Origin: Rubrivivax sp.
GTDB taxonomy: Bacteria > Pseudomonadota > Gammaproteobacteria > Burkholderiales > Burkholderiaceae_C
Length of the DNA: 41,083 bases
Reading direction: 5' to 3'
Assembly (NCBI GenBank): GCA_026785885.1
Contig: JAJAZC010000018.1
Location: 1-41,083, forward strand
Shown here piece after piece: positions 6,502-33,125 of the stretch (positions are counted from its first letter, which is position 1; every line of letters starts with the position of its first letter). The notes under the pieces are model-generated. The model saw only the letters and a program-made list of their open reading frames with translations. It had not been told where the DNA came from and ran no database searches. The translations under genes were made by a program, and so were the position numbers.

Positions 6502-8357
6502 CCAGCCACCGCCAGGCCCGCCCAGCCCGCCAAGCCCGGCAGGCTGCCACGCCGGTGCGCAGCGTCAATTACGCCACCAGCCCGCTGCTGGCGAGCAAGA
6601 CGCCGCTGTGGCGATCGCGCCTGGTGGTGATGCTGGTGGGGCTGGCTTTCCTGGCGCTGCTGGGTCGCGCGGTGCACCTGCAGATCCTCAACACCGACTT
6701 CTATCAAGCGCAGGGCGAAAAGCGTTTCGTGCACCGCGAGCCGCTGCCTGCCAGCCGCGGCCGCATCCTCGATCGCAATGGCTTGGCGCTGGCCAGCAGC
6801 GTGGCGCTGCCTTCGGTGCAGGTCGAGACCCAAACCTTCAGCGCAGATGCAGACGCGCGCAAGCAGTTCGCCCGGCACTTGGGCATCAGCCCGCTGGAGC
6901 TGGCCGAGCGGCTGGATGGCACCAGCGGCACGGTCATGCTCAAGCGCCATATCGAGGAGCCGGCGTGGGCGCAGATCAAGGCGCTGGGCCTCAAAGGTGT
7001 GCGGGAGGTGCGCGAGTACAAACGCCGCTACCCCGAAGGCGAGGCCGCGGCGCATGTCGTCGGCTTCACCGACCCCGACGGCAAGGGCATCGCCGGCATG
7101 GAGCTCGTTTTCGACGCTGCTTTGACCGGCCAGGCCGGCCAGCGCACCGTGGTACGCGACCGCCTGGGCCGTGTCGTCGAAGACGTGGGCGACCAGACCC
7201 TCCCGGTCCACGGCAACGACGTGTTGCTGGCTATCGACTCCAAGGTGCAGTTCTTCGCCTGGCAGCGCCTGCGCGACGCGGTGCAGCAGCACGGTGCGCT
7301 CGGTGGCAGCGCCGTGGTGCTGGACGTCAACACCGGCGAGGTGCTGGCCCTGGCCAACTACCGCAGCGAAGCCGCCATGCGCGCGGCGCGCTCGCGCCTG
7401 CTGCGCAACAGCGCGCTGGCCGACACCTTTGAGCCCGGCTCGACGATGAAGCCCTTTACCGCGGCGCTGGCACTGGAGCGCGGGCCGTGGACGCCCACCA
7501 CGCGCATCGACACCGCGCCGGGCCGCATCGTCATTGCCGGCGCGCCGATCAGCGACGCGCATCCGCACGGTGTGTTGAGCGTGGCTGAGGTGATCCAGAA
7601 GTCCAGCAACGTCGGCACCGTCAAGATGGCGATGCAGATGCCGGCACGTGAGATGTGGGAGCTGTACACCGCCATCGGCCTCGGCCAGCGCCCGCCGATC
7701 GACTTCCCCGGCGCCGCCGCCGGGCGCCTGCGTCCGTACAAGACCTGGCGCCCGGTCGAGCAGGCCACCATGAGCTACGGCTACGGCCTGTCGACGAGCC
7801 TGTTTCAGCTGGCGCGCGCCTACACCGTGTTTGCGCGCGACGGCGAACTGATCCCGCTGACGCTGCTGCGGCCAGAAAGCGATGCGGCCACTGCAGCCGC
7901 CGGCGGCCTGCTGCCGGTGGTGTTGCGCGACGCATCCGGCGCTGCTGCTGCACCGGTGCCGGGCCAGCGTGTGATCTCCGCTGCCACCGCGCAGGCCGTG
8001 CGCGAAATGCTGCGCATGGCCGCCGGCCCGGGCGGCACGGCGCCCAAAGCGCAGGCCCTGGGCTACAGCGTCGCCGGCAAGACGGGCACTGCGCGCAAGC
8101 ACGAAGGCAAGGGCTACGCGCAGGGCAAGTACCTGTCGTTCTTCGTCGGCCTGGCGCCGGCCAACCGGCCGCGCATCGTCGTGGCGGTGATGCTGGACGA
8201 GCCCAGTCGCGGCAGCTACTTCGGCGGTGACGTCGCGGCACCCGTGTTCAGCCAGGTCGTGCAGCAGACCCTGCGCATGATGAACGTCGCGCCCGATCTG
8301 GATGTCAAGGCGCAGATCAACGTCAAGCCGGTGGCGGCCGAGCAAGAAAGTATTTGA
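6498..8357 (+). CDS. ftsI: Septal peptidoglycan transpeptidase FtsI (PBP3)
   Basis: FtsI is the class B penicillin-binding protein that cross-links septal peptidoglycan. It has a cytoplasmic tail, one membrane segment (about residues 36-57), a pedestal domain beginning EPLPASRGRILDRNG, and a transpeptidase domain. The active-site triad motifs are intact: STMK with nucleophile Ser315, SSN at 369-371 and KTG at 528-530. At 619 residues the length is slightly above the E. coli protein. The ATG overlaps the ftsL stop. The stop codon is shared with the ATG of an insert reading frame (TGATG at 8355-8359), so murE is no longer directly coupled to ftsI. Confidence 0.97.
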   Translation: MTSHRQARPARQARQAATPVRSVNYATSPLLASKTPLWRSRLVVMLVGLAFLALLGRAVHLQILNTDFYQAQGEKRFVHREPLPASRGRILDRNGLALASSVALPSVQVETQTFSADADARKQFARHLGISPLELAERLDGTSGTVMLKRHIEEPAWAQIKALGLKGVREVREYKRRYPEGEAAAHVVGFTDPDGKGIAGMELVFDAALTGQAGQRTVVRDRLGRVVEDVGDQTLPVHGNDVLLAIDSKVQFFAWQRLRDAVQQHGALGGSAVVLDVNTGEVLALANYRSEAAMRAARSRLLRNSALADTFEPGSTMKPFTAALALERGPWTPTTRIDTAPGRIVIAGAPISDAHPHGVLSVAEVIQKSSNVGTVKMAMQMPAREMWELYTAIGLGQRPPIDFPGAAAGRLRPYKTWRPVEQATMSYGYGLSTSLFQLARAYTVFARDGELIPLTLLRPESDAATAAAGGLLPVVLRDASGAAAAPVPGQRVISAATAQAVREMLRMAAGPGGTAPKAQALGYSVAGKTGTARKHEGKGYAQGKYLSFFVGLAPANRPRIVVAVMLDEPSRGSYFGGDVAAPVFSQVVQQTLRMMNVAPDLDVKAQINVKPVAAEQESI

Positions 8358-8629
8358 TGGGGCCCCCGAACTCGCTAACGCTAGCTACCCCCCAAGGGGG
8401 GCCAGCCGGACAAGTAACAGTCCCGGCGGACTGTTCCTCGCCTGCGGGCGCGGGCGGGCGGGGCCCCCCCCGCCCCCCCCCCCCCCCCCCCCCCCCCCCC
8501 GCCGGGGGGGCGGGGCGCCCGGGGCGGGGGGGGCCGGCGCGCCCCCCCCCCCCCCCCCCCCCCCCGACGGCCCGGCGCAGCCGGTTCCGTGGCGGGATGC
8601 TTGATCGCGACTTGGTCGTCGGCGGATGA
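8357..8629 (+). CDS. Insert reading frame between ftsI and murE (linker 1)
   Basis: An ATG that shares its A with the ftsI stop (TGATG) opens a 90-codon frame that closes at TGA 8627-8629, one base before the murE ATG at 8631. The predicted peptide is Pro/Gly-rich because it reads through long C runs and has no recognisable domain. The DNA begins with a palindromic repeat (8358-8403). The frame depends on homopolymer lengths that may be wrong, so I am unsure that it is translated as read. It resembles three other junction frames at 12773, 15788 and 17001. Confidence 0.3.
   Translation: MGPPNSLTLATPQGGPAGQVTVPADCSSPAGAGGRGPPRPPPPPPPPPAGGAGRPGRGGPARPPPPPPPPTARRSRFRGGMLDRDLVVGG
8358..8403. repeat. 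Palindromic repeat with GCCCCC/GGGGGC arms at the ftsI/murE junction
   Basis: The arms GGGGCCCCC and CCCCCCAAGGGGGGCC flank an inner inverted pair GCTAACGCTAGC. The layout (C-run, TCGCTNNCGCTNGCT, C-run, G-run) recalls short intergenic hairpins that are common in Burkholderiales, and a related piece lies at 12779-12802. It could act as a terminator or pausing hairpin, but here it lies inside an operon. Confidence 0.6.
8461..8565. other. Extreme C/G homopolymer tract, possible assembly artefact
   Basis: The stretch has a run of 28 C (8473-8500), a G-rich middle (8504-8530) and a run of 24 C (8542-8565). Nothing else in the window looks like this. Such runs are a classic site of sequencing or assembly error, so lengths, and hence the reading frame of the insert, should be treated as unknown. 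Confidence 0.8.
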
Positions 8630-8630
8630 C

Positions 8631-10229
8631 ATGCTGAGTGTGCTCGATACCCCCCAAGCCGCAGCTGCGTGGCTGGCTGCCCAAGTGAGCGGCACGCTGC
8701 AGACCGACAGCCGCCGGCTGCGCGCGGGTGACGGCTTCATTGCCTGGCCGGGTTACGCCACCGACGGCCGCCGCTTCGTGCCCGATGCGCTGGCCGCGGG
8801 TGCTGCGGCCTGCCTGGTCGAAGCGGATGGCGCAGCGGCCTTCGGCTTCGATGACGAACGCATTGCCGCGCTGCCGGGCCTGAAGGCCGCCACCGGCACC
8901 ATCGCGCACACCTTCTTCGGCCAGCCCAGCGCAGCGCTGCAGATCAGCGCCGTCACCGGCACCAACGGCAAGACCAGCACCGCGTGGTGGACTGCGCAGG
9001 CGCTGAGCCGGCTGGGCCGGCGCTGCGGTGTCGTCGGCACGCTGGGGGTCGGCGAGCCCGATGCGGTGGTGGCCACCGGCTTGACCACGCCCGACCCGGT
9101 CACGCTGCACGGCGCTTTGCGCAGCATGGTCGATCAGGGCTTTGCAGCCTGCGCACTGGAGGCCTCGTCGATAGGCCTTGTCGAGCACCGGCTCGATGCG
9201 CTGCACATCGACGTTGCGCTGTTCACCAACTTCACGCGCGACCACCTGGATTTTCACGGCAGCATGGACGCTTACTGGGCCGCCAAGCGCGCGCTGTTCA
9301 GCTGGCCTGGCTTGCGCGCTGCGGTCGTCAACATCGACGATGCACAGGGCGCCGCGCTGGCGCTTGAGCTGGCGGCCGGGCCGCAAGCACATGCGCTCGA
9401 TCTGTGGACGGTGTCGATGCGAGCGCCAGCGCGGCTGCGCGGTGAACGCTTGCAGCACGCGCAGGACGGGCTGACCTTCGACGCCGTGGAAGGCGCCGTG
9501 CGCATCGGCGTGCAGACCCGGCTCGTCGGCGACTACAACGCCAGCAACGTGCTGGGCATGCTGGCGGGCTTGCGCGCTTTGGGCGTGCCGCTGGCGGATG
9601 CGGCGGCGGTGGCGGCCACGTTGACGCCGGTGCCTGGGCGGCTGCAGCGGGTAACTGGCGTCGACGTTGGCGTCAGCGCCAACGACAGCGCCAAGATCAG
9701 CGCCAAGATCAGCGCCAACCCCAGCGCCGACAACACCGCCGACAACACCGTCGACGTCATCGTCGACTACGCCCACACCCCCGACGCGCTGGACAAAGCG
9801 CTGCAGGCGTTGCGCCCGCTGGCCGCTGCGCGTGGCGGGCTGCTGTGGTGCGTCTTCGGTTGCGGCGGTGACCGTGACATCACCAAGCGCCCGTTGATGG
9901 GCGCCATCGCGGCGCGGCACGCGGACCATGTCGTGATCACCAGCGACAACCCGCGCGCCGAAGTGCCGGCCACGATCCTGTCGCAGATCCTGGCCGGTGT
10001 GCCCGCGCACCGGGCGGTCGAGGTGATCGAGGACCGCCGCGAAGCTATCCACCACGCGGTGCAACGCGCCGCCGCCGGCGACGTGGTGTTGCTGGCCGGC
10101 AAAGGCCATGAGGACTACCAGGAGGTGGCCGGCATCCAGCGCCCGTTCTCCGATGTCGCCGAAGCGCAGGCCGCGCTGCAGTCGCGCAGCGCTGCAACGG
10201 CCCTGTCGGCAGCCGAGGCCGCCCGATGA
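8631..10229 (+). CDS. murE: UDP-MurNAc-L-Ala-D-Glu:meso-diaminopimelate ligase MurE
   Basis: MurE adds the third amino acid of the peptidoglycan stem. The ATP-binding P-loop TGTNGKTST and the acceptor motif DNPRAE are visible; DNPR indicates meso-diaminopimelate rather than lysine. I place the start at ATG 8631 (MLSVLDTPQAA), since upstream in-frame codons come from the insert; a GTG at 8589 is possible but unlikely. The 532-residue protein is longer than usual partly because of a six-fold tetrapeptide repeat (SAND, SAKI, SAKI, SANP, SADN, TADN; DNA 9675-9746) just before VDVIVDYAHTPDAL. The stop overlaps the murF ATG (ATGA). Confidence 0.96.
   Translation: MLSVLDTPQAAAAWLAAQVSGTLQTDSRRLRAGDGFIAWPGYATDGRRFVPDALAAGAAACLVEADGAAAFGFDDERIAALPGLKAATGTIAHTFFGQPSAALQISAVTGTNGKTSTAWWTAQALSRLGRRCGVVGTLGVGEPDAVVATGLTTPDPVTLHGALRSMVDQGFAACALEASSIGLVEHRLDALHIDVALFTNFTRDHLDFHGSMDAYWAAKRALFSWPGLRAAVVNIDDAQGAALALELAAGPQAHALDLWTVSMRAPARLRGERLQHAQDGLTFDAVEGAVRIGVQTRLVGDYNASNVLGMLAGLRALGVPLADAAAVAATLTPVPGRLQRVTGVDVGVSANDSAKISAKISANPSADNTADNTVDVIVDYAHTPDALDKALQALRPLAAARGGLLWCVFGCGGDRDITKRPLMGAIAARHADHVVITSDNPRAEVPATILSQILAGVPAHRAVEVIEDRREAIHHAVQRAAAGDVVLLAGKGHEDYQEVAGIQRPFSDVAEAQAALQSRSAATALSAAEAAR
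9675..9746 (+). repeat. Six 12-bp tandem repeats inside murE
   Basis: Six copies of a 12-bp unit, AGCGCCAACGAC and variants, lie in frame within murE and encode SA[N/K/D]x units. The second and third copies are identical. They add about 24 residues between the central and C-terminal domains, directly before the conserved VDYAHTPDAL motif. This is probably replication slippage in a tolerant loop. Confidence 0.85.
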
Positions 10230-11602
10230 TGACGCTGGCCCAGGCCCACGCGCTGCTACCCGGCAGCACGCTGGTGGGCGACGCTGCGCTGGTCTTCGAG
10301 CGCGTGCACACCGACACGCGCACGCTGCAAGCAGGCGATCTGTTTGTGGCACTCCAGGGCGACCGTTTCGACGGCAACGACTTCCTCAGCCAGGCGCAGG
10401 CCCAGGGCGCGGTGGCCGCGTTGGCAATGCGCGGGCTCGGGGCCGCAATGCCGGGCTTGCTGGTGCCCGACCCGCTGGCTGCGCTGCAGCAACTGGCAGC
10501 GGCTTGGCGCGCGCGGTTTCACCTGCCGCTGATTGCGGTCACGGGCAGCAACGGCAAGACCACGGTGACGCAGATCGTGGCGGCCATCCTCTGGGCCTGG
10601 CAGCAGGAGCACAGCCTGGCCACCGCCGGCAACCTCAACAACCACATCGGCGTGCCGCTGATGCTGTTGCGCTTGCGCCAGGACGACGGCTGCGTGCACC
10701 GCGTGGCCGTGCTCGAACTTGGCATGAACCACCCGGGCGAGATCGCCCGGCTCGCACGCTGGGCTGCGCCGACGGTGGCGCTGGTCAACAACGCGCAGCG
10801 TGAGCACCAGGAATTCATGGCCGGTGTCGACGCGGTGGCGCGCGAGAACGGCGCTGTCATAGCGGCTCTCGGCGCAGGCGGCACCGCCGTGTTCCCGGCC
10901 GACGACCCCTACACATTGCTGTGGCGGGGCATGGCCGGCAGCCGGCGCGTCGTCACCTTCGGCGCAGGCGGCGACGTGAGCTGCGATGCGCAATGGTCGG
11001 GCACAGCCTTGCACTGGCAGCTGGCGCTGCAGACGCCGGCCGGCGCCGTCACGACCGTGCTGGCTTTGCCGGGTGAGCACAACGTGCGCAATGCGATGGC
11101 CGCCGCCGCTTGCGCGCTGGCAGCAGGCGCACCGCTGCGGGCAATCGAGACCGGCATGGCCGCCTTCCGCCCGGTGGCCGGGCGCTCGCACGTCGTCCGG
11201 CTCCGGTGGCGCGGCCGTGACGTGACGCTGATCGACGACAGCTACAACGCCAACCCCGATTCGGTGCTCGCCGCCATCGAGCTGCTGGCCGGTTTGCCGG
11301 GCCCGCGCTGGCTGATCCTGGGCGACATGGGCGAGGTGGGCGTGCAGGGCCCGCAGTTCCACGCCGAGGTGGGTGCGCGGGCGCATCAGCGCGGCATCGA
11401 GCAGGTGTGGGCCGTGGGTGCACTGTCTGTCCACACCGCAGCTCACCGGCACTTCGTGGACATAAGCGCGTTGCTGGCGGCGCTGCACCACGCATACGCA
11501 CAGGCGCCGGCTGCAGCGTCGGTGCTGGTCAAGGGGTCGCGATTCATGAAGATGGAGCAGGTGGTGCAGGCACTGCAAAAAGAGGCAGCCGATGCTGTTT
11601 AG
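10226..11602 (+). CDS. murF: UDP-MurNAc-tripeptide:D-Ala-D-Ala ligase MurF
   Basis: MurF attaches the D-Ala-D-Ala dipeptide to the UDP-MurNAc-tripeptide in the cytoplasm. The P-loop [13 protein letters not shown] lies at about residues 110-122, followed by [13 protein letters not shown] and [11 protein letters not shown], which are specific for MurF, and [10 protein letters not shown] in the C-terminal part. Its length of 458 residues is normal. The ATG overlaps the murE stop (ATGA). The last eleven bases overlap the start of mraY, so the three genes are translationally coupled. Confidence 0.97.
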
Positions 11603-12773
11603 CCTGAGCCAGTGGCTGGTGCAGCAATGGCCCGATCAGCTGGGCTTTTTGCGCGTCGTGCAGTACCTGACCTTCCGCGCGGTGCTGGCGGCGATGACCT
11701 CGCTGCTGATCGGCCTGGCCTTCGGCCCCTGGGTTATCCGCAAGCTGACCGAGCTGAAGATCGGCCAGCCGATCCGCGAGTACGGCGTGCAGGCGCACCT
11801 GGGCAAACGCGGCACGCCGACGATGGGCGGTGTGCTGGTGTTGATTGGCATCGCGGCCAGCACGCTGTTGTGGTTTGACTGGAGCAACCGCTTTGTCTGG
11901 GTCGTGATGCTGGTGACCTTCGGCTTCGGCGCCATCGGTTGGGTCGACGACTACCGCAAGGTCGTGCACAAAGATCCGGAGGGCATGCGCAGCCGCGAGA
12001 AGTTTTTCTGGCAGACGCTGATCGGCGTCATCGCTGCGCTGTACCTGGCCTTCAGCGTCAGCGAAACCAGCAACCTGCGCGTGCTGGAGTTGTTCATCCG
12101 CTGGGTCACCAGCGGCTTTTCCAACGAGCTGCCGCCGCGGGCCGACTTGATGGTGCCGTTCTTCAAGACCGTGAGCTATCCGCTCGGTGTCTTCGGCTTT
12201 ATCTTCCTGACCTGGTTCGTGATCGTCGGCACCAGCAACGCGGTCAACTTCACCGACGGGCTGGACGGCCTGGCGATCATGCCGGTGGTCATGGTGGGCA
12301 GCGCTTTAGGCGTCTTTGCCTACGTTGTCGGCAACGCCAACTTCAGCCGCTACCTGCTGTTTCCGTACATCCCCGGCGCAGGTGAGCTGCTGGTGTTCTG
12401 CGCTGCGATGGCCGGCGCTGGCCTGGCGTTCTTGTGGTTCAACGCCAACCCGGCGCAGGTCTTCATGGGCGACGTCGGCGCGCTCGCGCTGGGCGGCGCA
12501 CTCGGGACCATCGCCGTCATCACGCGGCAGGAAATTGTGCTGGGCATCATGGGCGGCATCTTCGTGGCCGAGATGCTCAGCGTGATGCTGCAGGTGGCCT
12601 GGTTCAAGTACACCAAGCGCAAGTACGGCCAGGGCCGGCGCATCTTCTTGATGGCGCCGCTGCACCACCACTTCGAGAAAAAAGGATGGGCCGAAAGCCA
12701 GGTCGTGGTGCGCTTCTGGATCATCACGATGCTGCTGTGCCTGATCGGCCTGGCGAGCTTGAAACTCAGGTGA
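11592..12773 (+). CDS. mraY: Phospho-MurNAc-pentapeptide transferase MraY
   Basis: MraY transfers phospho-MurNAc-pentapeptide to undecaprenyl phosphate, making lipid I in the inner membrane. The 393-residue protein has about ten hydrophobic segments. Family motifs are GTPTMGG (about residues 74-80), GWVDDYRKV with the DD pair, [11 protein letters not shown], and [13 protein letters not shown] on a cytoplasmic loop. The start lies inside the end of murF. The TGA stop shares its A with the ATG of an insert reading frame (TGATG, 12771-12775). Confidence 0.97.
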
Positions 12774-12889
12774 TGAAGCCCCCACGCTCACTGCGTTCGC
12801 TGCTTTCCGAGGCGGCTCATGCTGCGGCCCGGCAAAGCCGGGTCCACGCATGGCCTTGGTCGGGCAGGCCGGAAATGCGTCTGTCATGA
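12773..12889 (+). CDS. Insert reading frame between mraY and murD (linker 2)
   Basis: An ATG sharing its first base with the mraY stop opens a 38-codon frame ([11 protein letters not shown] at its start, RLS at its end). It closes at TGA 12887-12889, which overlaps the murD ATG as ATGA. The DNA contains a repeat piece (12779-12802) and a hairpin CCCGGC-AAA-GCCGGG (12828-12842). The peptide is basic and has no known domain. The coupling geometry on both sides suggests that the insert is translated, or at least tolerated only in this phase; no other evidence for a function is visible. Confidence 0.4.
   Translation: MKPPRSLRSLLSEAAHAAARQSRVHAWPWSGRPEMRLS
12779..12842. repeat. Repeat-derived DNA with hairpin at the mraY/murD junction
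   Basis: CCCCACGCTCACTGCGTTCGC (12779-12799) resembles the inner part of the palindrome at 8358-8403 and a short repeat I recall as common in Burkholderiales intergenic DNA. Its right half is followed not by the usual G-run but by a second hairpin at 12828-12842. It may be a mosaic of two elements or a decayed copy. Confidence 0.5.
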
Positions 12890-14511
12890 GCTGGCTTGCA
12901 GGACTTCCGGTGCTGGTGCTGGGCCTGGGTGACAGCGGCTTGGCGATGGCGCGCTGGTGCGTACGCCACGGCGCGCAGGTACGCGTGTGGGACAGCCGCG
13001 AAACGCCGCCCGGCCAGGCCGCGCTGCAGGCCGATCTGCCCGGCACGCCGCTGGTCACCGGCACGCTGGATGTAGCACTGCTGCACAGCGTGCAACTGGT
13101 GCTGAAGAGCCCCGGCCTGTCACCGCGCGATGAACGCATTGCACCGTTGCTGCAGGAGGCACGCGCCATCGGCATTGCGGTGCAGGGCGAGCTCGATTTG
13201 TTTGTGCGTGCGCTGGCCGACCTCAAAGCCGCGCAGGGCTACACACCGCAGCTCTTGGCCATCACCGGCACCAACGGCAAGACGACGACCACGGCGATGA
13301 CCGCGCTGCTGGTGGACCGTGCCGGCAAGCGCGTGGCCACCGCCGGCAACATCGGCCCGACGCTGCTGGACACGTTGAGCGCGCGGCTGGATGACCTGCC
13401 GGAGGTCTGGGTGCTGGAGCTGTCGAGCTTTCAGCTCGAAGGCGGCGGCACCGGTGTGCGCGGCTTCGAGCCCAGCGCCGCGGTGGTGCTGAACATCAGC
13501 GAAGACCACCTGGATTGGCACGGCACGATGGCGGCTTACACGGCAGCCAAAGCGCGGGTGTACGGCACCGGCAAGCGCACAGGCAACGGCGGCGGCCAGG
13601 ACGATGGCAGCGCCACGCTGGCACTCATCAACCGCGACGACCCGCGGGTCGAAGCGCTGGCTTCGTCGCTGGTCTCGGCGCCAGCACCGGAAACGTTGTC
13701 GGCCAAGGGCAAAACCAAGCCCAAGCTGGTCAGTCGCCCGGTGCTGCGCTTTGGCCTTGACGCGCCGCGCCAGCCCGGCGACTTCGGCCTTATCGAAGAA
13801 AACGGCATGGCCTGGCTGGTGCGTGCGCTGCCGCTCGAGGAGCCCAGCCGCCGCCGCCGTGCCGACGACGAAGCGCTGCACCTGCAGCGCCTGATGCCGG
13901 CCGATGCGCTGCGCGTGCGCGGCCGCCACAACGCTGCCAACGCGCTGGCCGCACTGGCGCTGGCCAGCGCCATCGGCTGTGGCCTGGCGCCGATGCTGCA
14001 TGCGCTGCGCGACTACGCAGGCGAGCCGCACCGCGTGCAGTTCATCGCGCGGCTGCCCTTGCTGTTGTCACCTGCGGGCGGCGAGGCCGAGGCCTTCGAC
14101 GACAGCAAGGGCACCAATGTCGGCGCCACCGTCGCCGCGCTGCATGGCCTGGGTGCCGACAAGCGGCCCGGCAAGCTGGTCGTCATCCTGGGCGGTGATG
14201 GAAAGGGCCAGGATTTCCAGCCGCTGGCGGCGCCGCTGCAGCAACACGCGCGTGCGGTGGCCACCATCGGCCGCGACGCGCCGTTGATCGAGGCCGCGCT
14301 GGCCGCCGCCGGCCTGCACGGCCTGCCGGTGCAGCGCTGCGCGACGCTGCCCGAGGCCGTGGCCTGGTGCTTCGAGCAAGCCCGCGGTGGCGATGCGGTG
14401 CTGCTGAGCCCGGCCTGCGCAAGCCTGGATATGTTCCGCAATTACGTGCACCGCGCGGAGGTCTTTGTCGGCGCCGTGCAGGCCCTGGCGGCCGATCGGG
14501 GGCAGGTTTGA
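12886..14511 (+). CDS. murD: UDP-MurNAc-L-Ala:D-glutamate ligase MurD
   Basis: MurD adds D-glutamate to UDP-MurNAc-L-alanine. I choose ATG 12886 ([21 protein letters not shown]), which gives the normal nucleotide-binding N-terminus; an upstream ATG at 12850 would add twelve residues derived from the insert. The P-loop [23 protein letters not shown] and [11 protein letters not shown] are diagnostic. At 541 residues it is longer than the E. coli enzyme, with extra sequence at about residues 225-240 (Gly/Lys-rich) and 265-285 (KGKTKPK). The TGA stop overlaps a TTG start of ftsW. Confidence 0.95.
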
Positions 14512-15791
14512 ACGCGGTGCTGAAAAGCGGCTTGGAAAGCGCGCTACAAACCGTCAAAGCCTGGCTCGCGCGCCAGGCGCCGGCGCGCCGGGCGCAAGCG
14601 GCGGCCGAGTTGCCGGTGCGCGCGCATGTCGACGCTGGCGGCGCGCGCCCGGTGCGGCTGATGGCTTTCGACCAGGCCCTGGTGGCGGTGGTCGGCACGC
14701 TGTTGGCGCTGGGCGTGGTAATGGTCTATTCGGCCACCATCGCGATGCCGGACAACCCCAAGTTCGCCAACTACTCGCATCTGCACTTTCTGCAGCGCCA
14801 CGTGTTGTTCATCGCCATCGCTTTTGTCGCTGCACTGGCCACGGTGCAGTTGCCGATGACGTTTTGGGAAAAGAACGCACCCTACGTTTTCATCGTCGCG
14901 CTGGTGCTGCTAGTGGCGGTGCTGCTGCCCTTCATCGGCAAGGTGGTCAACAACTCGCGGCGCTGGATTCCGTTGGGGCTAATGAGCTTCCAGCCCAGTG
15001 AGCTGGCCAAGCTGGCGATCACGCTGTACGCCGCCAACTACATGGTGCGGCGCATGGACTCGCGCGAGCGCTTCTTCCGCGCCGTGACGCCGATGGTGGT
15101 GGCGGTGGGCATCGTCGGCGCGCTGCTGCTGCGCCAGCCCGACATGGGCGCTTTCATCGTCATCGCGACGATTGCCATGGGCGTGCTGTTTTTGGGCGGC
15201 GTTAACGCACGCATGTTCTTTTTGATCGCGCTGGTGATGATCATCGTGCTGGGCTTGTTTCTGGCCTTCGACGACCTGCGGCGCGAGCGCATCCTGGCTT
15301 ACCTGGACCCCTGGAACCCGAAGTACGCGCAGGGCAAGGGCTACCAGCTGACGCACAGCCTGATCGCACTCGGCCGCGGTGAAATCTTCGGCCAGGGCCT
15401 GGGCTCGTCGATCGAAAAACTGCACTACCTGCCGGAGGCGCACACCGACTTCCTGCTCGCCGTCATCGGCGAAGAGCTCGGCTTCGTCGGCGTGGCCGCG
15501 GTGATCGTGCTGTTCTTCTGGCTCACGCGGCGCGTGTTCCTGATCGGCCGCCAAGCCATCGCACTGGACCGCGTCTTCGCCGGCCTCTTGAGCCAGGGCA
15601 TCGGCATCTGGATCGGCTTCCAGGCCTTCATCAACATGGGTGTGAACCTGGGGCTGCTGCCGACCAAAGGTTTGACATTGCCGTTGATGAGCTATGGCGG
15701 CAGCGCGATCCTGATGAACCTCGTCGCATTGGCATTGGTGCTGCGCGTGGATATCGAGAACAGAGCACTCATGCGCGGAGGCCGCGCATGA
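14508..15791 (+). CDS. ftsW: Septal peptidoglycan glycosyltransferase FtsW
   Basis: FtsW is the SEDS-family polymerase that works with FtsI at the septum. The protein has about ten membrane segments. Conserved pieces are [55 protein letters not shown] and [14 protein letters not shown]. The start is not certain: a TTG at 14508 overlaps the murD stop as TTGA and fits the coupling seen elsewhere, GTG 14517 is close by, and an ATG near 14661 is nearest the first membrane segment. The end encodes RALMRGGRA and lies in a perfect hairpin that also holds the next start codon. Confidence 0.93.
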
Positions 15792-15932
15792 ACGGTATGC
15801 GCAGCATGACGTCGGCGCGAAGTGCGGGTGCGCTGTTTCGGCGCAGGCTCAGATCGCGAAGCGATGTGAAGGGTGTGCAGCACCCGGGCCGAAACCAAAA
15901 TAGAGCACTCATGCGCGGAGGCCGCGCATGAA
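15762..15932 (+). repeat. 31-bp direct repeats flanking a 109-bp insert at ftsW/murG
   Basis: The 31 bases at 15762-15792 (AGAGCACTC through CGCATGAA) recur exactly at 15902-15932. Copy 1 ends ftsW; copy 2 starts murG. Each copy contains a perfect 10-bp stem TCATGCGCGG-AGG-CCGCGCATGA whose loop carries the Shine-Dalgarno bases AGG. The DNA between (15793-15901) holds a second fold: GTTTCGGC (15835-15842) pairs with GCCGAAAC (15888-15895) and encloses hairpins ATCGC-GAA-GCGAT and GGGTG-TGCAG-CACCC, which gives a three-way junction. Confidence 0.9.
15788..15931 (+). CDS. Insert reading frame between ftsW and murG (linker 3)
   Basis: The ATG overlaps the ftsW stop (ATGA, 15788-15791). The frame runs 47 codons without a stop and ends at TGA 15929-15931, which overlaps the murG ATG (ATGA, 15928-15931). 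The peptide is basic, begins [14 protein letters not shown] and ends with the same RALMRGGRA as FtsW because of the duplicated repeat. A Shine-Dalgarno GGAGG lies six bases before the ATG, exactly as for murG. No known domain is present. The coupling is visible in the sequence; translation and function are not shown. Confidence 0.45.
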
Positions 15933-17004
15933 GCACCTCGTCATCATGGCCGCGGGCACCGGTGGGCACATCATGCCGGGCCTGGCTGTTGCGCACGAGA
16001 TGCAGGGCCGTGGCTGGAGCGTCAGCTGGCTCGGCACCGCGCACGGCATGGAAAACAGGCTCGTGCCGGCGGCGCATATTCCGCTGGACATCATCACCTT
16101 CAGCGGCCTGCGCGGCAAGGGTCTGCTGCACACCGCCACCGGCGGGCTGCGGCTGTTGAAGGCGATGTGGGACTGCCTGGGCATCCTGCGCCGCCGCGGT
16201 GCCAGCGCGGTGCTGGGCATGGGCGGCTACGTGTGTTTTCCGGGCGGCCTGATGGCCAGCGTGCTGAACAAGCCGCTGCTGCTGGTGAATGCCGATGCAG
16301 CCCTGCTGCTGTCCAACAAGAGCCTGCTGCCGGTGGCCGACCGCGTGGCTTTCGGCTTCGAAGGCCGCGCCGCTGCAACGACCAAAAATTCTGTGGTCAC
16401 CGGCAACCCGGTGCGGGCCGAGATCGAAGCCATCGCACCGCCGGCCGAGCGCTTTGCAGGCCGCACCGGCGCGCTGCGTCTTCTGGTGGTCGGCGGCAGC
16501 CTGGGCGCGCAGGTGCTGAACCAGATCCTGCCTGCTGCGCTGGCGCTGCTGCCGGCCGAGCAACGCCCGCAGGTCACGCACCAGACCGGCAGCGCGCAGG
16601 CCGACGCGGTGCGCGCAGCGTATGCACAGACCGGCATCGCGGCCGAGGTGCTGCCGTTTATCGACGACATGCCGCGGCATCTGGCTGATTGCGACGTGAT
16701 GGTCTGCCGCGCCGGCGCCATCACGGTCAGCGAGCTGTGTGCCGCTGGTGTCGCGGCCGTGCTGGTGCCGCTGATCGTCAGCACCACTTCGCACCAGCGC
16801 GACAACGCACAGTGGCTGGCGGCAGCCGGTGGTGCGATTCATTTGCCGCAACAGGAATTGAGCGCGGCGGCGTTGGCCGACACGCTAGGCCAACTCAATC
16901 GCCCGGTCCTGTTGGCGATGGCAGAAAGGGCACGTGCTCAAGCCCGCCCGCGGGCTGCAGCGCGGGTCGCCGACGAGCTGCAGACACTGGTGGCCCGCGC
17001 ATGA
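15928..17004 (+). CDS. murG: Lipid II synthase MurG (UDP-GlcNAc transferase)
   Basis: MurG adds GlcNAc to lipid I at the inner face of the inner membrane, giving lipid II. The N-terminal [13 protein letters not shown] loop, [34 protein letters not shown] and the donor-binding [23 protein letters not shown] are visible. At 358 residues it has the usual length. The start ATG is preceded by GGAGG (15918-15922) in the loop of a perfect hairpin. The stop overlaps a copy of the murC start (ATGA, 17001-17004) that opens a short insert frame. Confidence 0.96.
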
Positions 17005-17087
17005 AGCACGCCATCAAGCACATCGACTTCATCGCGAACTGGCGGGTGCCGATGAAGCACCGTGGCGCGTTGGGCAGTCGTGCATGA
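17001..17087 (+). CDS. Insert reading frame between murG and murC (linker 4)
   Basis: The ATG overlaps the murG stop (ATGA) and the 28-codon frame ends at TGA 17085-17087, overlapping the murC ATG at 17084 (ATGA). Its first ten codons, [10 protein letters not shown], are a near-copy of the murC start ([10 protein letters not shown]), so it is a duplicated start followed by about 50 bp of other DNA. That DNA contains GGTGC-CGATGAA-GCACC (17045-17061). The product is too short for a domain; coupling, not peptide function, is the likely reason the frame is open. Confidence 0.4.
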
Positions 17088-17118
17088 AGCACGCCATCAA
17101 GCACATCCACTTCATCGG
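17001..17118 (+). repeat. Direct repeat of the murC start, 83 bp apart
   Basis: Bases 17001-17034 recur at 17084-17117 with one mismatch (GAC for CAC) before the two diverge. The arrangement parallels the ftsW/murG junction: a gene start is doubled around a short insert, and the unit length (83) leaves remainder 2 on division by 3, as does 140 at ftsW/murG. Confidence 0.85.
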
Positions 17119-18466
17119 CGTCGGCGGCGCCGGCATGAGCGCGATCGCCGAGGTGCTGCACGGCCAGGGCTTGCGCGTCAGCGGCTCCGATCAAAGCGAC
17201 AGCGCGGTGACGCGCCGCCTGGCGCAACTCGGGCTTGCGATCTTCATCGGCCACGACGCACGACACATCGCCGGCGCGCAAGCCGTCGTCACCAGCACTG
17301 CGGTGCAGCCCGACAACCCCGAAGTCGTGGCAGCGCGCGCTGCGCGCATTCCGGTGGTGGCGCGGGCGGTGCTGCTGGCCGAGCTGATGCGGCTGAAACA
17401 GGGCGTGGCCATCGCCGGCACGCACGGCAAGACGACGACGACCTCGCTGGTGGCCAGCGTGCTGGCCGAAGCCGGGCTGGACCCGACCTTTGTCATCGGC
17501 GGGCAGCTCAAGAGTGCCGGGGCCAACGCGCGGCTGGGCAGCGGTGACTGGATCGTCGTCGAAGCCGACGAAAGCGACGCGTCTTTCCTGCACCTCAGCC
17601 CGGTCATCAGCGTCGTCACCAATATCGACGCCGACCACATGGAAACCTACGGCCACGACATCGGCCGTCTGCACAGCGCGTTTGTCGACTTCATCCACCG
17701 CCTGCCTTTCTACGGCCGCGCGGTGCTGTGCAGCGACGACGCCGGTGTGCAGGCCGTGTTGCCGCGGCTGCAGCGGCCTGTGACCACCTACGGCCTGGCC
17801 GTCGGTGCCGACTTGCGCGCCATCGACGTGCAGGCCCTGCCCGGTGGCCGCATGCATTTCACCGCGCAGCAAGCCAGGCATGCCGATCTACGGCTAACGC
17901 TCAACCTGGCTGGCCGGCACAACGTGTGCAACGCGCTGGCCGCCTTGGCCGTGGCGCGCGAACTGCAGGCGCCTGACGAAGCCAGCGCGCAGGCCCTGCA
18001 GCACTTTGCCGGTGTCGGCCGCCGCTTCGAATGCCTGGGCGATGTGCCGTGCGATGGCGGCCACTACACACTGATCGACGACTACGGCCACCACCCCGTG
18101 GAGATGGCCGCCGTGCTCGAAGCAGCGCGCGGCGCTTACCCCGGCCGGCGTGTGCTGCTGGCCTTTCAGCCGCACCGCTACACGCGCACACGCGACTGTT
18201 TCGACGGCTTCGTCACGGTGCTGCAGCAAGCCGACGGCGTGTTGCTGTGCCCCGTCTACGCCGCCGGTGAAGCGACTATTGTCGGTGCCGACAGCGCGGC
18301 GCTGGCCGCCGCTGTGCCGCGTGCCGTGTTGGTCGACAGCATCGCGGCGCTGCCCGCGGCCATTGCGCGCCAGGCCCACAACGGCGATGTCGTCATCACG
18401 CTGGGCGCAGGCTCCATCGGCCAGGTACCACGTCAGTTGATGGACACCGCAGGAGCCAGCGCATGA
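17084..18466 (+). CDS. murC: UDP-MurNAc:L-alanine ligase MurC
   Basis: MurC adds the first amino acid of the stem peptide. The N-terminus [18 protein letters not shown] is the UDP-binding Rossmann part, [14 protein letters not shown] the P-loop, [10 protein letters not shown] and [11 protein letters not shown] the central domain, and [10 protein letters not shown] the C-terminal motif. At 460 residues the length is normal. Of the two copies of the start, only ATG 17084 is in frame with the enzyme. The stop overlaps the ddlB ATG (ATGA). Confidence 0.97.
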
Positions 18467-21622: not shown

Positions 21623-22927
21623 ATGCCCATCGAAATGATTGACGAATTCGACCAAGGCACGCAGATCAAGGTGATCGGCGTCGGCGGCGGCGGCGGCAAC
21701 GCTGTCGAACACATGATCAACCAGGGTGTCCAAGGCGTGGATTTCATCTGCGCCAACACCGATGCGCAGGCCCTGCACCGCAGCAGCGCCGGCACGCTGG
21801 TGCAGCTGGGCCACAGCGGCCTGGGTGCCGGCAGCAAACCCGAGATGGGGCGTGTTTCGGCCGAAGAAGCCGTCGAGCGCATCAAGGAAAACATCGCCGG
21901 CGCGCACATGCTGTTTATCACCGCCGGCATGGGTGGCGGCACCGGCACCGGCGCTGCACCGGTGATCGCACGCGTGGCCAAAGAGATGGGCATCTTGACG
22001 GTGGGTGTCGTCACCAAGCCGTTCGAGTTCGAAGGCAAACGCCGCCGCAAACAGGCCGACGACGGTGTCAGCGAACTCGAAGCCAACGTCGACAGCCTGA
22101 TCGTGGTCCTCAACGAAAAGCTGCTCGAAGTGATGGGCGACGACGTGACGCAAGAGCAGGCCTTTGCACACGCCAACGACGTGCTGAAAAACGCCGTCGG
22201 CGGCATCAGCGACATCATCCACATCCCGGGCTTGGTCAACGTCGACTTCGAAGACGTCAAGACCGTGATGAGCGAGCCCGGCAAAGCCATGATGGGCACC
22301 GCAGTGGCCGGCGGCCCGGACCGCGCCACCAAAGCCGCCGACCTGGCGGTGGCCTGCCCGCTGCTGGAAGGCATTGACCTGAGTGGTGCACGCGGCGTGC
22401 TGGTGTTGATTGCGGCCAGCAAACAAACGTTCAAACTCGCCGAGAGTCGCAACGCGATGAACACCATCCGCCGCTACGCCGCCGACGAAGCCCACGTGAT
22501 CTACGGCACCGCGTACGACGAAACGCTGGGTGACCAGCTGCGCGTGACCGTCATCGCTACCGGCCTGAGCAGCAGCCGCCGCGCGCAGCAAAGCCCGCCG
22601 CTGAGCGTGGTGCAGCAGCAGCCGCATCAGCAGCCCCATCGGCACGCACAGCACCAGCCGCAACAGCACCTGCGCACCGGCACCGACAACATCCCGGTGT
22701 TGAACCATGTCGCGCAAACCGGCCTGTCCGGTACCGCGGCCGGCCTGCACACGCCCAGCAACACGCCGCACACCACGCAACCACCGCAGCACAGCTACGA
22801 AGGGCTCAACACCCCAAGCGTGTGGCGCACCAACCGCACGCACGCGGCTGCGAAGGTGGATGCGCTGGCGAGCAACGGGATGGATGAGATCGAGATTCCG
22901 GCGTTCTTGAGGAAGCAGGCGGATTGA
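21623..22927 (+). CDS. ftsZ: Cell division GTPase FtsZ
   Basis: FtsZ is the tubulin-like GTPase that forms the division ring. The GTP-binding signature GGGTGTG is at residues 104-110, preceded by GVGGGGGNAVEHM (19-31), and the T7-loop region reads NVDFEDVKTVM. The C-terminal linker (about residues 335-415) is rich in Gln, His and Thr, and the tail DEIEIPAFLRKQAD binds FtsA and ZipA-type partners. ATG 21623 has a strong AGGAGG ribosome site eight bases upstream. It is the last gene of the dcw cluster and is followed by a terminator. Confidence 0.98.
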   Translation: MPIEMIDEFDQGTQIKVIGVGGGGGNAVEHMINQGVQGVDFICANTDAQALHRSSAGTLVQLGHSGLGAGSKPEMGRVSAEEAVERIKENIAGAHMLFITAGMGGGTGTGAAPVIARVAKEMGILTVGVVTKPFEFEGKRRRKQADDGVSELEANVDSLIVVLNEKLLEVMGDDVTQEQAFAHANDVLKNAVGGISDIIHIPGLVNVDFEDVKTVMSEPGKAMMGTAVAGGPDRATKAADLAVACPLLEGIDLSGARGVLVLIAASKQTFKLAESRNAMNTIRRYAADEAHVIYGTAYDETLGDQLRVTVIATGLSSSRRAQQSPPLSVVQQQPHQQPHRHAQHQPQQHLRTGTDNIPVLNHVAQTGLSGTAAGLHTPSNTPHTTQPPQHSYEGLNTPSVWRTNRTHAAAKVDALASNGMDEIEIPAFLRKQAD

Positions 22928-25124: not shown

Positions 25125-25275
25125 GCCTAATCGTCGTGCTCGACGAAAAGCAGCTTGCAGTGATGGGCGACGACGTGAGGCAGGAGCAGGCTTTTGCACA
25201 CGCCAACGACGTGCTGAAAAACGCCGTCGGCGGCGAGCCGGCAAAAGCGGCGACATCATCCGCATCCCCGGCGCT
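25125..25275 (+). pseudogene. Internal ftsZ fragment (relic)
   Basis: The DNA closely copies ftsZ 22095-22240: the protein frame reads LIVVLDEKQLAVMGDDVRQE and AFAHANDVLKNAVGG, against LIVVLNEKLLEVMGDDVTQE in the intact gene. After GGCGGC an extra 11 bp shift the frame, then GCGACATCATCC continues to match. The GTP-binding and C-terminal parts are absent. It may come from a second, diverged ftsZ gene or from a copy of the neighbouring one, about 2.9 kb away. It is fused in frame to the DNA before the methyltransferase but should not be read as part of that enzyme. Confidence 0.85.
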
Positions 25276-32958: not shown

Positions 32959-33125
32959 CTAGTACGCCAACACGGAGATATCGAAACATGATGAAAGCGA
33001 TGGATTCGGGCCGAGGGCAAGGCGCAAAGCACAGCGATGCTCTTTTGCATCGCGAGAATTTGCAACGCCGCCATCGGCCCGAAGACGCGCTTTCATGTTT
33101 CGATATCTCCGTGTCGGGGTACTAG
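32959..33125. repeat. 167-bp palindromic repeat, copy 2
   Basis: The ends are CTAGTACGCCAACACGGAGA on the left and the matching TCTCCGTGTCGGGGTACTAG on the right; the arms continue with TATCGAAACATG and AAAGCG, then CGGGCCGA against TCGGCCCG. The core is GGCGCAAAGCACAG, apical hairpin CGATGC-TCTTTT-GCATCG, and CGAGAATTTGCAACG, as in the copy at 313-427 but with a different stem. The right end includes the stop codon of the CBS gene (33122-33124). It separates the two genes of a minus-strand unit and would form a large RNA hairpin. Confidence 0.9.

Follow-up and report, generated by a model that had tools for sequence, protein, structure and literature searches.

Why does a dcw cluster in which neighbouring genes otherwise overlap or nearly overlap carry extra DNA at four junctions, and why does this DNA read as short open frames? 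The question is raised by a stretch of 41,083 nt from Rubrivivax sp. (contig JAJAZC010000018.1), hereafter the window. The original prediction placed inserts at ftsI/murE, mraY/murD, ftsW/murG and murG/murC and saw each of them coupled to both neighbouring genes. All four inserts are real, and inserts 2, 3 and 4 lie exactly as described.

Inserts in the dcw cluster

The inserts and the genes around them are located as follows.

8357..8629, + strand: insert 1, ftsI/murE; 90 codons; ATG 8357 on the ftsI stop (TGATG)
12773..12889, + strand: insert 2, mraY/murD; 38 codons; TGATG at one end, ATGA at the other
12886..14511, + strand: murD; Mur ligase domains, MurD-like N domain; follows insert 2 and precedes ftsW
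14508..15791, + strand: ftsW; PF01098, TIGR02614; TTG start overlaps the murD stop
15759..15791, + strand: ftsW tail; predicted 10-bp hairpin TCATGCGCGG-AGG-CCGCGCATGA; copied at 15899-15931
15788..15931, + strand: insert 3, ftsW/murG; 47 codons; ATGA at both ends
15928..17004, + strand: murG; TIGR01133
17001..17087, + strand: insert 4, murG/murC; 28 codons; ATGA at both ends
17084..18466, + strand: murC; TIGR01082
17084..17118, + strand: murC head; matches the start of insert 4

Insert 2 begins with ATG 12773 on the mraY stop and ends with TGA 12887-12889 on murD ATG 12886. The corresponding codons are ATG 15788 on the ftsW stop and TGA 15929-15931 on murG ATG 15928 for insert 3, and ATG 17001 on the murG stop and TGA 17085-17087 on murC ATG 17084 for insert 4. 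Frame reading found the window inserts open between the overlaps. Inserts 2 to 4 overlap both of their neighbours. Insert 1 overlaps a neighbour at its 5' end only; one base separates its TGA (8627-8629) from murE ATG 8631, and its frame is untrustworthy. It contains C runs of 28 nt (8473-8500) and 24 nt (8542-8565), the sole G or C runs of at least 12 nt in 255,867 bases of the own genome that were scanned. No comparable poly-C was present in the loci of relatives (40 + 80 examined, 6 of them duplicates). The poly-C is likely an assembly artefact, so neither the length of insert 1 nor its phase is evidence.

The remaining junctions from mraZ to ftsQ had been described as overlapping or touching. 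They overlap or nearly do so, with 11 nt shared by murF and mraY; 'touching' is slightly generous because a one-base gap separates ddl and ftsQ.

Origin of the insert sequences

The first 43 nt of insert 1 are part of a dispersed repeat. At E <= 0.01, this 5' part has four other copies in the own genome, and the next part has one. Insert 2 is a copy of a dispersed repeat. Counting the insert itself, the own genome has 46 matches at E <= 10, many of which are partial, and 17 remain at E <= 1e-4. The 3' end of insert 3 copies the ftsW tail (15759-15791) with 97% identity, including GGAGG and ATGA; the own-genome search at E <= 0.01 gave no match besides this tail. In the predicted fold of the tail, the tip of the hairpin presents a Shine-Dalgarno core, and the stem includes the linker start codon. 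Insert 4 copies the murC head at its 5' end (32/33 nt); a portion of this murC-head copy recurs within the insert in inverted orientation (CGATGAAG).

Across genomes, the insert material consists of dispersed palindromic repeats or was copied from the tail of ftsW or the head of murC. The sequences are unrelated: 105 inserts fall into 24 clusters even at the loosest setting. A single mobile family was rejected as the source, given insert 3 without another own-genome copy, the dispersed insert 2 and the at least 24 clusters. On a MurG tree of 87 genera, the insert state changed at least 22 times at ftsW/murG and at least 15 times at murG/murC. At any one junction, linkers are absent from the majority of genomes.

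Phase and openness of inserts in relatives

A strict chain was defined as a single open frame or a run of two or three; each frame starts on the preceding stop and ends on the following start, and a linker has at least 6 codons. Set A comprised the window and 40 genomes of the same genus. Set B comprised 74 named loci, after 6 further named loci were dropped as duplicates of set A. Set C comprised 88 genomes, each from a different genus of the family, and was fetched once the rule was fixed; 19 of 107 other-genus genomes with a match were left out of it. From one further list of 70 genomes, 40 were fetched, largely the best-scoring ones, and some second members of a family were skipped. Rows with poor start or end alignment, genes too far apart or N runs in the junction were dropped. 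The choice of the three main junctions, murD/ftsW, ftsW/murG and murG/murC, followed inspection of sets A and B and preceded the fetching of set C. Some organisms occur in both B and C (e.g., L135 and F045 have identical linkers), so the counts of these two sets must not be summed. 'In-frame' and 'loose' are classes introduced once exceptions had been seen, and they were not scored as successes.

At the main junctions, strict chains accounted for 19/19 inserts in set A, 33/36 in set B and 46/50 in set C; a cut-off of 8 codons gives the same 46/50. A null model with shuffled interior, random length and retained ends predicts about 8.6 of 50 in set C (murD/ftsW 0.8, ftsW/murG 4.7, murG/murC 3.1), compared with 25/28 observed at ftsW/murG and 18/19 at murG/murC. 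Single linkers in relatives keep a length of 2 mod 3. All eight phase 1 inserts of set C are two-linker chains, and its four phase 0 inserts are one three-linker chain, two in-frame murG extensions and one unexplained case. The four non-chains of set C are two in-frame extensions of murG and two short unexplained gaps. Exceptions at the main junctions are F096, F077, L166 and L167, with gaps of 24-26 nt, and L129, which ends one base early. Beyond the family, unexplained inserts made up 6/13 at murG/murC and 1/16 at ftsW/murG. The rule recurs in unrelated sequences, as chains occur in 20 of the 24 clusters (P = 2e-12 at p 0.17, 7e-7 at p 1/3).

The rule is nearly absent at the comparison junctions ddl/ftsQ, ftsQ/ftsA and ftsA/ftsZ, with strict chains in 0/10 (set A), 2/78 (set B) and 0/29 (set C). 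Fisher's test of main versus comparison junctions gave p values of 5e-8, 8e-23 and 1e-17, respectively; ddl/ftsQ is itself coupled in 34/60 members of set C. The expectation that inserts in relatives stay open and keep 2 mod 3 thus passes at the three main junctions, and the 46/50 of set C support the first reading offered for the window, that inserts survive only if ribosomes keep moving from gene to gene.

Other junctions and the genome-wide pattern

The scope of the rule differs from that of the original prediction: it applies at three junctions, is weak elsewhere in the cluster, even where neighbours are in some cases usually coupled, and is not confined to the dcw cluster. Strict chains at murC/ddl were 2/8 in set B and 0/4 in set C, although 56/64 members of set C are coupled there. 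At mraY/murD they were 3/4 in set A, 0/15 in set B and 0/13 in set C (9 in-frame); a looser filter yields 9 instead of 4 inserts in set A, 8/9 of them in phase 2. Sets A and B together gave 4/12 at ftsI/murE, 3/5 at rsmH/ftsL, 1/3 at ftsL/ftsI, 0/1 at murE/murF and 0/5 at murF/mraY.

Outside the cluster, the rule holds at fliL/fliM. Behind an NTGA stop, 14/17 inserts are chains (4.2 expected, P = 7e-7) and 3/17 are exceptions. The four inserts behind a TAG or TAA stop include no strict chain, but they are no control because such stops hardly meet the definition and 3/4 are nonetheless in phase 2. The genome-wide excess of chains is only about two-fold (34/306 versus 14.8 in part of G098, 16/105 versus 8.1 in part of the own genome). 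Genome-wide phase counts are uninformative when taken apart from the chain test; only the class of 21-60 nt leans to phase 2 (G098 55/124, own genome 14/32), for which miscalled starts may be the cause.

Linker minicistrons as a model

The inserts are probably linker minicistrons (probability about 0.7): where stop and start codons overlap, duplications and insertions of repeats would have occurred again and again and been filtered by selection for termination-reinitiation. Translation of the linkers, reinitiation as the property under selection and the way in which duplications arise are inferences. DNA would be added repeatedly where the stop and start codons of an operon overlap. One source would be a second copy of junction sequence (the ftsW tail or the murC head) that brings along ATGA and often a Shine-Dalgarno core; the other would be insertion of dispersed palindromic repeats. 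A ribosome ending the upstream gene would restart on the linker start, translate the insert, end on the downstream start and restart again. An insert that is out of phase or bears a stop would leave a gap that the terminating ribosome cannot cross. The start-codon hairpin at ftsW/murG would then stay closed, and untranslated RNA could be exposed. Alleles that make such gaps would be lost, so that the surviving inserts are chiefly open and in the correct phase. The same rule would apply to arrays of two or three linkers because each unit brings its own overlaps. The linker peptides would be by-products.

A Shine-Dalgarno core of at least 4 nt, located 4-17 nt upstream of the downstream start, was counted in sets A, B and C pooled, which are not independent. 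It was present in 47/58 chains versus 87/125 insert-free junctions at ftsW/murG, in 23/34 versus 69/145 at murG/murC and in 3/6 versus 126/176 at murD/ftsW. Rfam at the gathering score gave no match over L138, L151, L080, L069 and L084, and just two weak miRNA hits far under the cut-off in window positions 8300-17200.

Alternative explanations

Open frames are common in DNA of high G+C content, and a favourable choice of starts might do the rest; a single case would then arise about once in six. Phase is independent of the start chosen, however, and every strict chain at the main junctions in sets A to C except G009 (set A) uses the first-choice downstream start. The shuffling null leaves chance with 8.6 expected chains against the 46 of 50 found in set C, all with the first-choice start; a chance origin is contradicted by these counts, was rejected and retains a negligible probability. 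The insertion or duplication process might itself create both overlaps and the phase, with no selection involved. A duplicated junction has ATGA at either end, coupling is preserved when a coupled unit is copied in tandem, and a process specific to certain junctions would fit the breakdown of the rule at murC/ddl. Duplicated ends, however, fix neither length modulo 3 nor openness, and inserts of many different lengths and of unrelated sequence obey the rule, both at the three junctions and at fliL/fliM. A purely mutational origin is improbable. A second reading offered for the window, that the small peptides are themselves used, found little support. Microproteins with a function in the divisome or in peptidoglycan synthesis would agree with the similarity of some linkers in related genomes (window, G037, G035 and G022 at ftsW/murG). 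Other genera have unrelated repeats at the same place, most genomes are linker-free at any one junction, and neither Pfam nor NCBIfam matched any of the four window peptides. Differences by codon position in 16 pairs each are near even, with 78/65/68 at murG/murC and 71/86/106 at ftsW/murG; murG as a yardstick gave 117/74/159, from a rough alignment that is indicative only. The third-position bias at ftsW/murG is weak (106/263) and leaves room for some peptide constraint. Peptide function was rejected as the main reading on the codon-position counts and the lack of a family match, and is very improbable.

Linkers might instead act as regulators. The inverted copy in a linker would pair with the upstream or downstream copy and thereby open or close a start codon, and the number of linkers would set the FtsW:MurG:MurC ratio in the manner of a translational attenuator. 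In one group, the linker head is an inverted copy of the species' own ftsW tail. At least 13 of 15 positions pair in 13/56 linker windows versus 1/126 windows without a chain, and both sides have changed at 8/21 pairs. Start-codon hairpins of at least 9 bp occur at 34/55 first linker starts versus 29/121 insert-free junctions, and in murC-head linkers the inverted copy matches the downstream murC head over at least 8 nt in 21/26 rows. Yet the covariation test, whose 13 rows had been selected for their pairing, is partly circular, and two of the measures it yields are unremarkable (pairs with change 14/500 shuffles, pair types 106/500). The murC-head arms match their own target hardly longer than that of other species (mean 6.9 versus 6.5), arms are absent from many linkers, and linkers are gained and lost between genera. 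Quasi-palindrome correction or template switching also produces inverted arms without selection. Regulation as the main role is unlikely. The hairpin arms over the start codon in 13/56 linker windows hint at a role beyond passive continuity. A bolder version, in which operons carry self-propagating attenuators, is likewise doubtful. Junction duplications with their own hairpin, Shine-Dalgarno core and overlaps would pile up to one to three copies and set the flow of ribosomes from FtsW to MurG to MurC. If this were true, expression ratios within operons would evolve through linker gain or loss.

Relation to known systems

Palindromic repeats are also tolerated in open frames of coding context in Rickettsia, where palindromic elements are located within genes and become part of the encoded protein. 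The linkers described here form cistrons of their own. Termination-reinitiation coupling at ATGA and TGATG uses the same overlaps and explains why a gap would break coupling (PMC6728339, PMC10666635). About 20 nt between genes nearly abolished coupling in the six pairs tested (Huber et al. 2023, PMC10666635). In their available text, both studies deal with gene pairs (Huber et al. 2019; Huber et al. 2023), and the terms 'linker' and 'small ORF' are absent from the main text of the former (PMC6728339). In the axe-txe operon, a very short ORF boosts translation of the next gene, and frame and distance matter. Unlike the linkers, it has two codons, belongs to a toxin-antitoxin system and possibly acts via mRNA protection; the available text does not mention an insertion history (PMC8708949).

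The original prediction knew of no description of such linker frames in this cluster. A close precedent is in print: at integron attC sites and with ORF-11 of attI1, a short ORF bridges palindromic DNA between genes by termination-reinitiation, and ribosomes pass from the upstream stop through the short ORF to the next gene (PMC8876359). These ORFs are tied to cassettes, recombination sites and resistance genes (PMC8876359), whereas the present linkers occur in housekeeping operons, derive from several unrelated repeat types and junction duplications and form arrays of up to three. For housekeeping operons, a limited open-access literature search found no description of linker frames.

Implications

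Repeated natural insertions would let evolution itself assay translational coupling. A junction that accepts phase-correct linkers only probably depends on handed-over ribosomes; one that accepts any insert probably does not. An experiment-free map of obligatory coupling could follow, and it points to murD-ftsW-murG-murC and fliL-fliM, not to murC-ddl. The linkers would show a way for palindromic repeats to become established within essential operons, and they predict a class of short frames that are translated.

Inserts in the division and cell wall (dcw) cluster

The genes from mraZ to ftsZ form a single row in the window, which stems from a draft genome of 3.33 Mb in 227 contigs. Extra DNA is present at four junctions. 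The original prediction described all four inserts as short open frames coupled to both neighbours, the one at ftsI/murE closing one base before murE.

Insert 1, ftsI/murE, 8357..8629: 90 codons open, closes one base short of murE
Insert 2, mraY/murD, 12773..12889: 38 codons open, ATG on the mraY stop, TGA on the murD ATG
Insert 3, ftsW/murG, 15788..15931: 47 codons open, ATG on the ftsW stop, TGA on the murG ATG
Insert 4, murG/murC, 17001..17087: 28 codons open, ATG on the murG stop, TGA on the murC ATG

Stop and start codons overlap at both ends of inserts 2, 3 and 4, but only at the 5' end of insert 1, which has a one-base gap before murE and poly-C runs of 28 nt (8473-8500) and 24 nt (8542-8565). 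These are the sole G or C runs of at least 12 nt in 255,867 scanned bases of the own genome, and the loci of 40 + 80 relatives contain none. They are probably an assembly artefact. Insert 1 was therefore given no weight as evidence.

Further repeats were seen in the window. The interior of murE has consecutive 12-nt direct repeats (9680-9768). A 110-nt stretch of ftsZ (22095-22204) recurs 3 kb downstream (25125-25234) with 91% identity; the copy is perhaps a piece of a second ftsZ-like gene. An inverted repeat with arms of 33 nt (32959-32991 and 33093-33125; 94% complementary, 101 nt apart) may be a small mobile element.

Phase and coupling in relatives

A linker is a short open frame between two genes that starts on the upstream stop and stops on the downstream start. 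In a strict chain of one to three linkers, every linker starts at -3 or 0 from the preceding stop, and the same offsets apply between the end of the last linker and the start of the downstream gene. With NTGA or TGATG overlaps, the position of the downstream start relative to the upstream stop (mod 3) is 2 for one linker, 1 for two and 0 for three, independent of the chosen start codon. The junctions murD/ftsW, ftsW/murG and murG/murC were chosen from set A (window and 40 same-genus genomes) and set B, which comprises 74 named loci. A third set, C, was fetched after the definition; its 88 genomes each represent a different genus.

The expectation that inserts in relatives keep a remainder of 2 without stops was borne out at these three junctions, with strict chains in 19/19 inserts of set A, 33/36 of set B and 46/50 of set C (murD/ftsW 3/3, ftsW/murG 25/28, murG/murC 18/19). 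Phase 2 was found in 11/11 ftsW/murG inserts >20 nt of set A. All eight phase-1 inserts of set C are two-linker chains, and its four phase-0 inserts comprise one three-linker chain (genome F084), two in-frame inserts and an unexplained one. Locus L118 of set B also has three linkers. Two or three linkers stand in tandem, every unit having overlaps of its own, at ftsW/murG in L118, L138, L149 and L151 and at murG/murC in F084. Where set C members lack a long insert, the two genes are coupled (-3 or 0) in 73/74 cases at murD/ftsW (a single row without a called start entered as not coupled), 58/59 at ftsW/murG and 65/68 at murG/murC.

In set C, the non-chains are two in-frame N-terminal extensions of murG (F044, F120) and two inserts without explanation (F096, 26 nt; F077, 24 nt). 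Those of set B are two related 24-nt inserts without explanation (L166, L167) and a linker closing one base short of murC (L129).

Control gaps of the same loci (ddl/ftsQ, ftsQ/ftsA, ftsA/ftsZ) had strict chains in 0/10 (A), 2/78 (B) and 0/29 (C); they are not wholly uncoupled, since ddl/ftsQ is coupled in 34/60 set C members. Shuffled interiors of random length between unchanged ends, scored with the single chosen start, predicted 4.7 chains at ftsW/murG in set C versus 25 observed, and 3.1 at murG/murC versus 18. The chains used the first-choice start in 18/19 (A), 33/33 (B) and 46/46 (C) cases.

Other junctions have fewer chains. Strict chains at murC/ddl were 2/8 (B) and 0/4 (C), despite the usual coupling there, and at mraY/murD 3/4 (A), 0/15 (B) and 0/13 (C; 9 in-frame). 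Sets A and B together had 4/12 at ftsI/murE, 3/5 at rsmH/ftsL, 1/3 at ftsL/ftsI, 0/1 at murE/murF, 0/5 at murF/mraY and 0/1 at mraZ/rsmH. Outside the family (the Burkholderiaceae_C lineage), 40 of 70 genomes were sampled. Their 16 ftsW/murG inserts were 10 chains, 4 in-frame, 1 loose and 1 of none of these classes; the 13 murG/murC inserts were 5 chains, 2 loose and 6 of no class.

Origin of the inserts

Insert 2 is one copy of a repeat dispersed in the own genome (46 matches at E <= 10 including itself, 17 at E <= 1e-4). A different dispersed repeat, with four other copies, supplies the first 43 nt of insert 1. Insert 3 ends with the last 33 nt of ftsW repeated at 97%, including GGAGG and ATGA; beyond this tail, the own-genome search gave no match at E <= 0.01. 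The start of insert 4 repeats the opening 33 nt of murC (32/33 identical). Duplication of junction sequence thus explains the ATGA found at either end of inserts 3 and 4. It leaves their phase and openness unexplained; random length and a shuffled interior satisfy both in ~1/6 of cases. Relatedness does not account for the chain rule: at the loosest linkage, the 105 inserts from sets A, B and C fall into 24 clusters, and chains occur in 20 of these. A MurG tree covering 87 genera likewise requires at least 22 changes of insert presence at ftsW/murG and at least 15 at murG/murC.

In one group of genera, the ftsW/murG linker opens with a stretch that repeats, in inverted orientation, the ftsW tail of the same species. 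Pairing at >=13/15 positions was found in 13/56 distinct linker windows versus 1/126 windows without chain. In these 13, the whole 45-nt stretch can fold into a hairpin of 21 bp that has the GGAGG core at the tip and the start codon in the stem. Changes on both sides occur at 8/21 pairs (38 cells versus 11.5 in shuffles, with a bias towards structure as rows were selected for pairing). Hairpins of >=9 bp span the start codon in 29/121 ftsW/murG junctions without insert, 34/55 first linker starts and 24/56 murG starts after a linker. Two readings fit: the hairpins may render the region duplication-prone and keep the start shut unless ribosomes come from upstream, or they may be retained for regulation. 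The murG/murC linkers of the window, same-genus genomes G036 and G038, set C genomes F084, F136 and F141, and others hold an inverted copy, e.g., CGACGAAG or CGATGAAG. It matches the downstream murC head over at least 10 nt in 16/26 rows.

Linkers beyond the dcw cluster

With genes called by a simple codon model, strict chains filled 34/306 codirectional gaps of 21-400 nt in 800 kb of a relative's genome, G098 (14.8 expected), and 16/105 in the own genome (256 kb; 8.1 expected), three of the 16 from the window cluster. Repeat-like coupled linkers in G098 precede an ABC transporter permease gene, hisG and a third gene (loci L310:7937-8692 plus 130 nt upstream, L310:10441-11085 and L334:11223-12302). 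Among 30 genera, 21 have >20 nt between fliM, confirmed by NCBIfam, and its neighbour, which we take to be fliL from its position. Behind an NTGA stop, 14/17 of these inserts are strict chains versus 4.2 expected (P = 7e-7).

Meaning of the linkers

That the small peptides are themselves used found little support. Differences per codon position between equal-length linkers are near-even (ftsW/murG 71/86/106, murG/murC 78/65/68; 16 pairs each, not independent). The four window peptides match no Pfam or NCBIfam family, and five linker-bearing loci match no Rfam family. From these comparisons, the conserved property appears to be coupling, not the peptide.

Linker frames in housekeeping operons or the dcw cluster were not found described in open-access literature, mostly titles and abstract openings, which is weak evidence of absence. 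The nearest precedent is a short ORF in integron attC sites, which is said to block stem-loop formation and to hand ribosomes on by termination-reinitiation (PMC8876359).

Termination-reinitiation at short overlaps is established: 13/14 tested pairs were strictly coupled, bioBF of E. coli being uncoupled (PMC6728339), and about 20 nt between genes nearly abolishes coupling (PMC10666635). An insert at an overlap junction therefore either is translated in a coupled manner or severs the downstream gene from the ribosomes of the upstream gene. Surviving inserts at the three main junctions would almost always be of the coupled type, and the linkers are presumably translated. The prediction that insertions survive only if ribosomes keep moving from gene to gene agrees with these junctions (46/50 in set C), but not with murC/ddl, mraY/murD and others. 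Because murC/ddl and some other junctions deviate, confidence is slightly lowered; filtering of insertions by selection for termination-reinitiation is the best reading, with a probability of roughly two in three. The chain rule is strongest within the family, at murD/ftsW, ftsW/murG and murG/murC.
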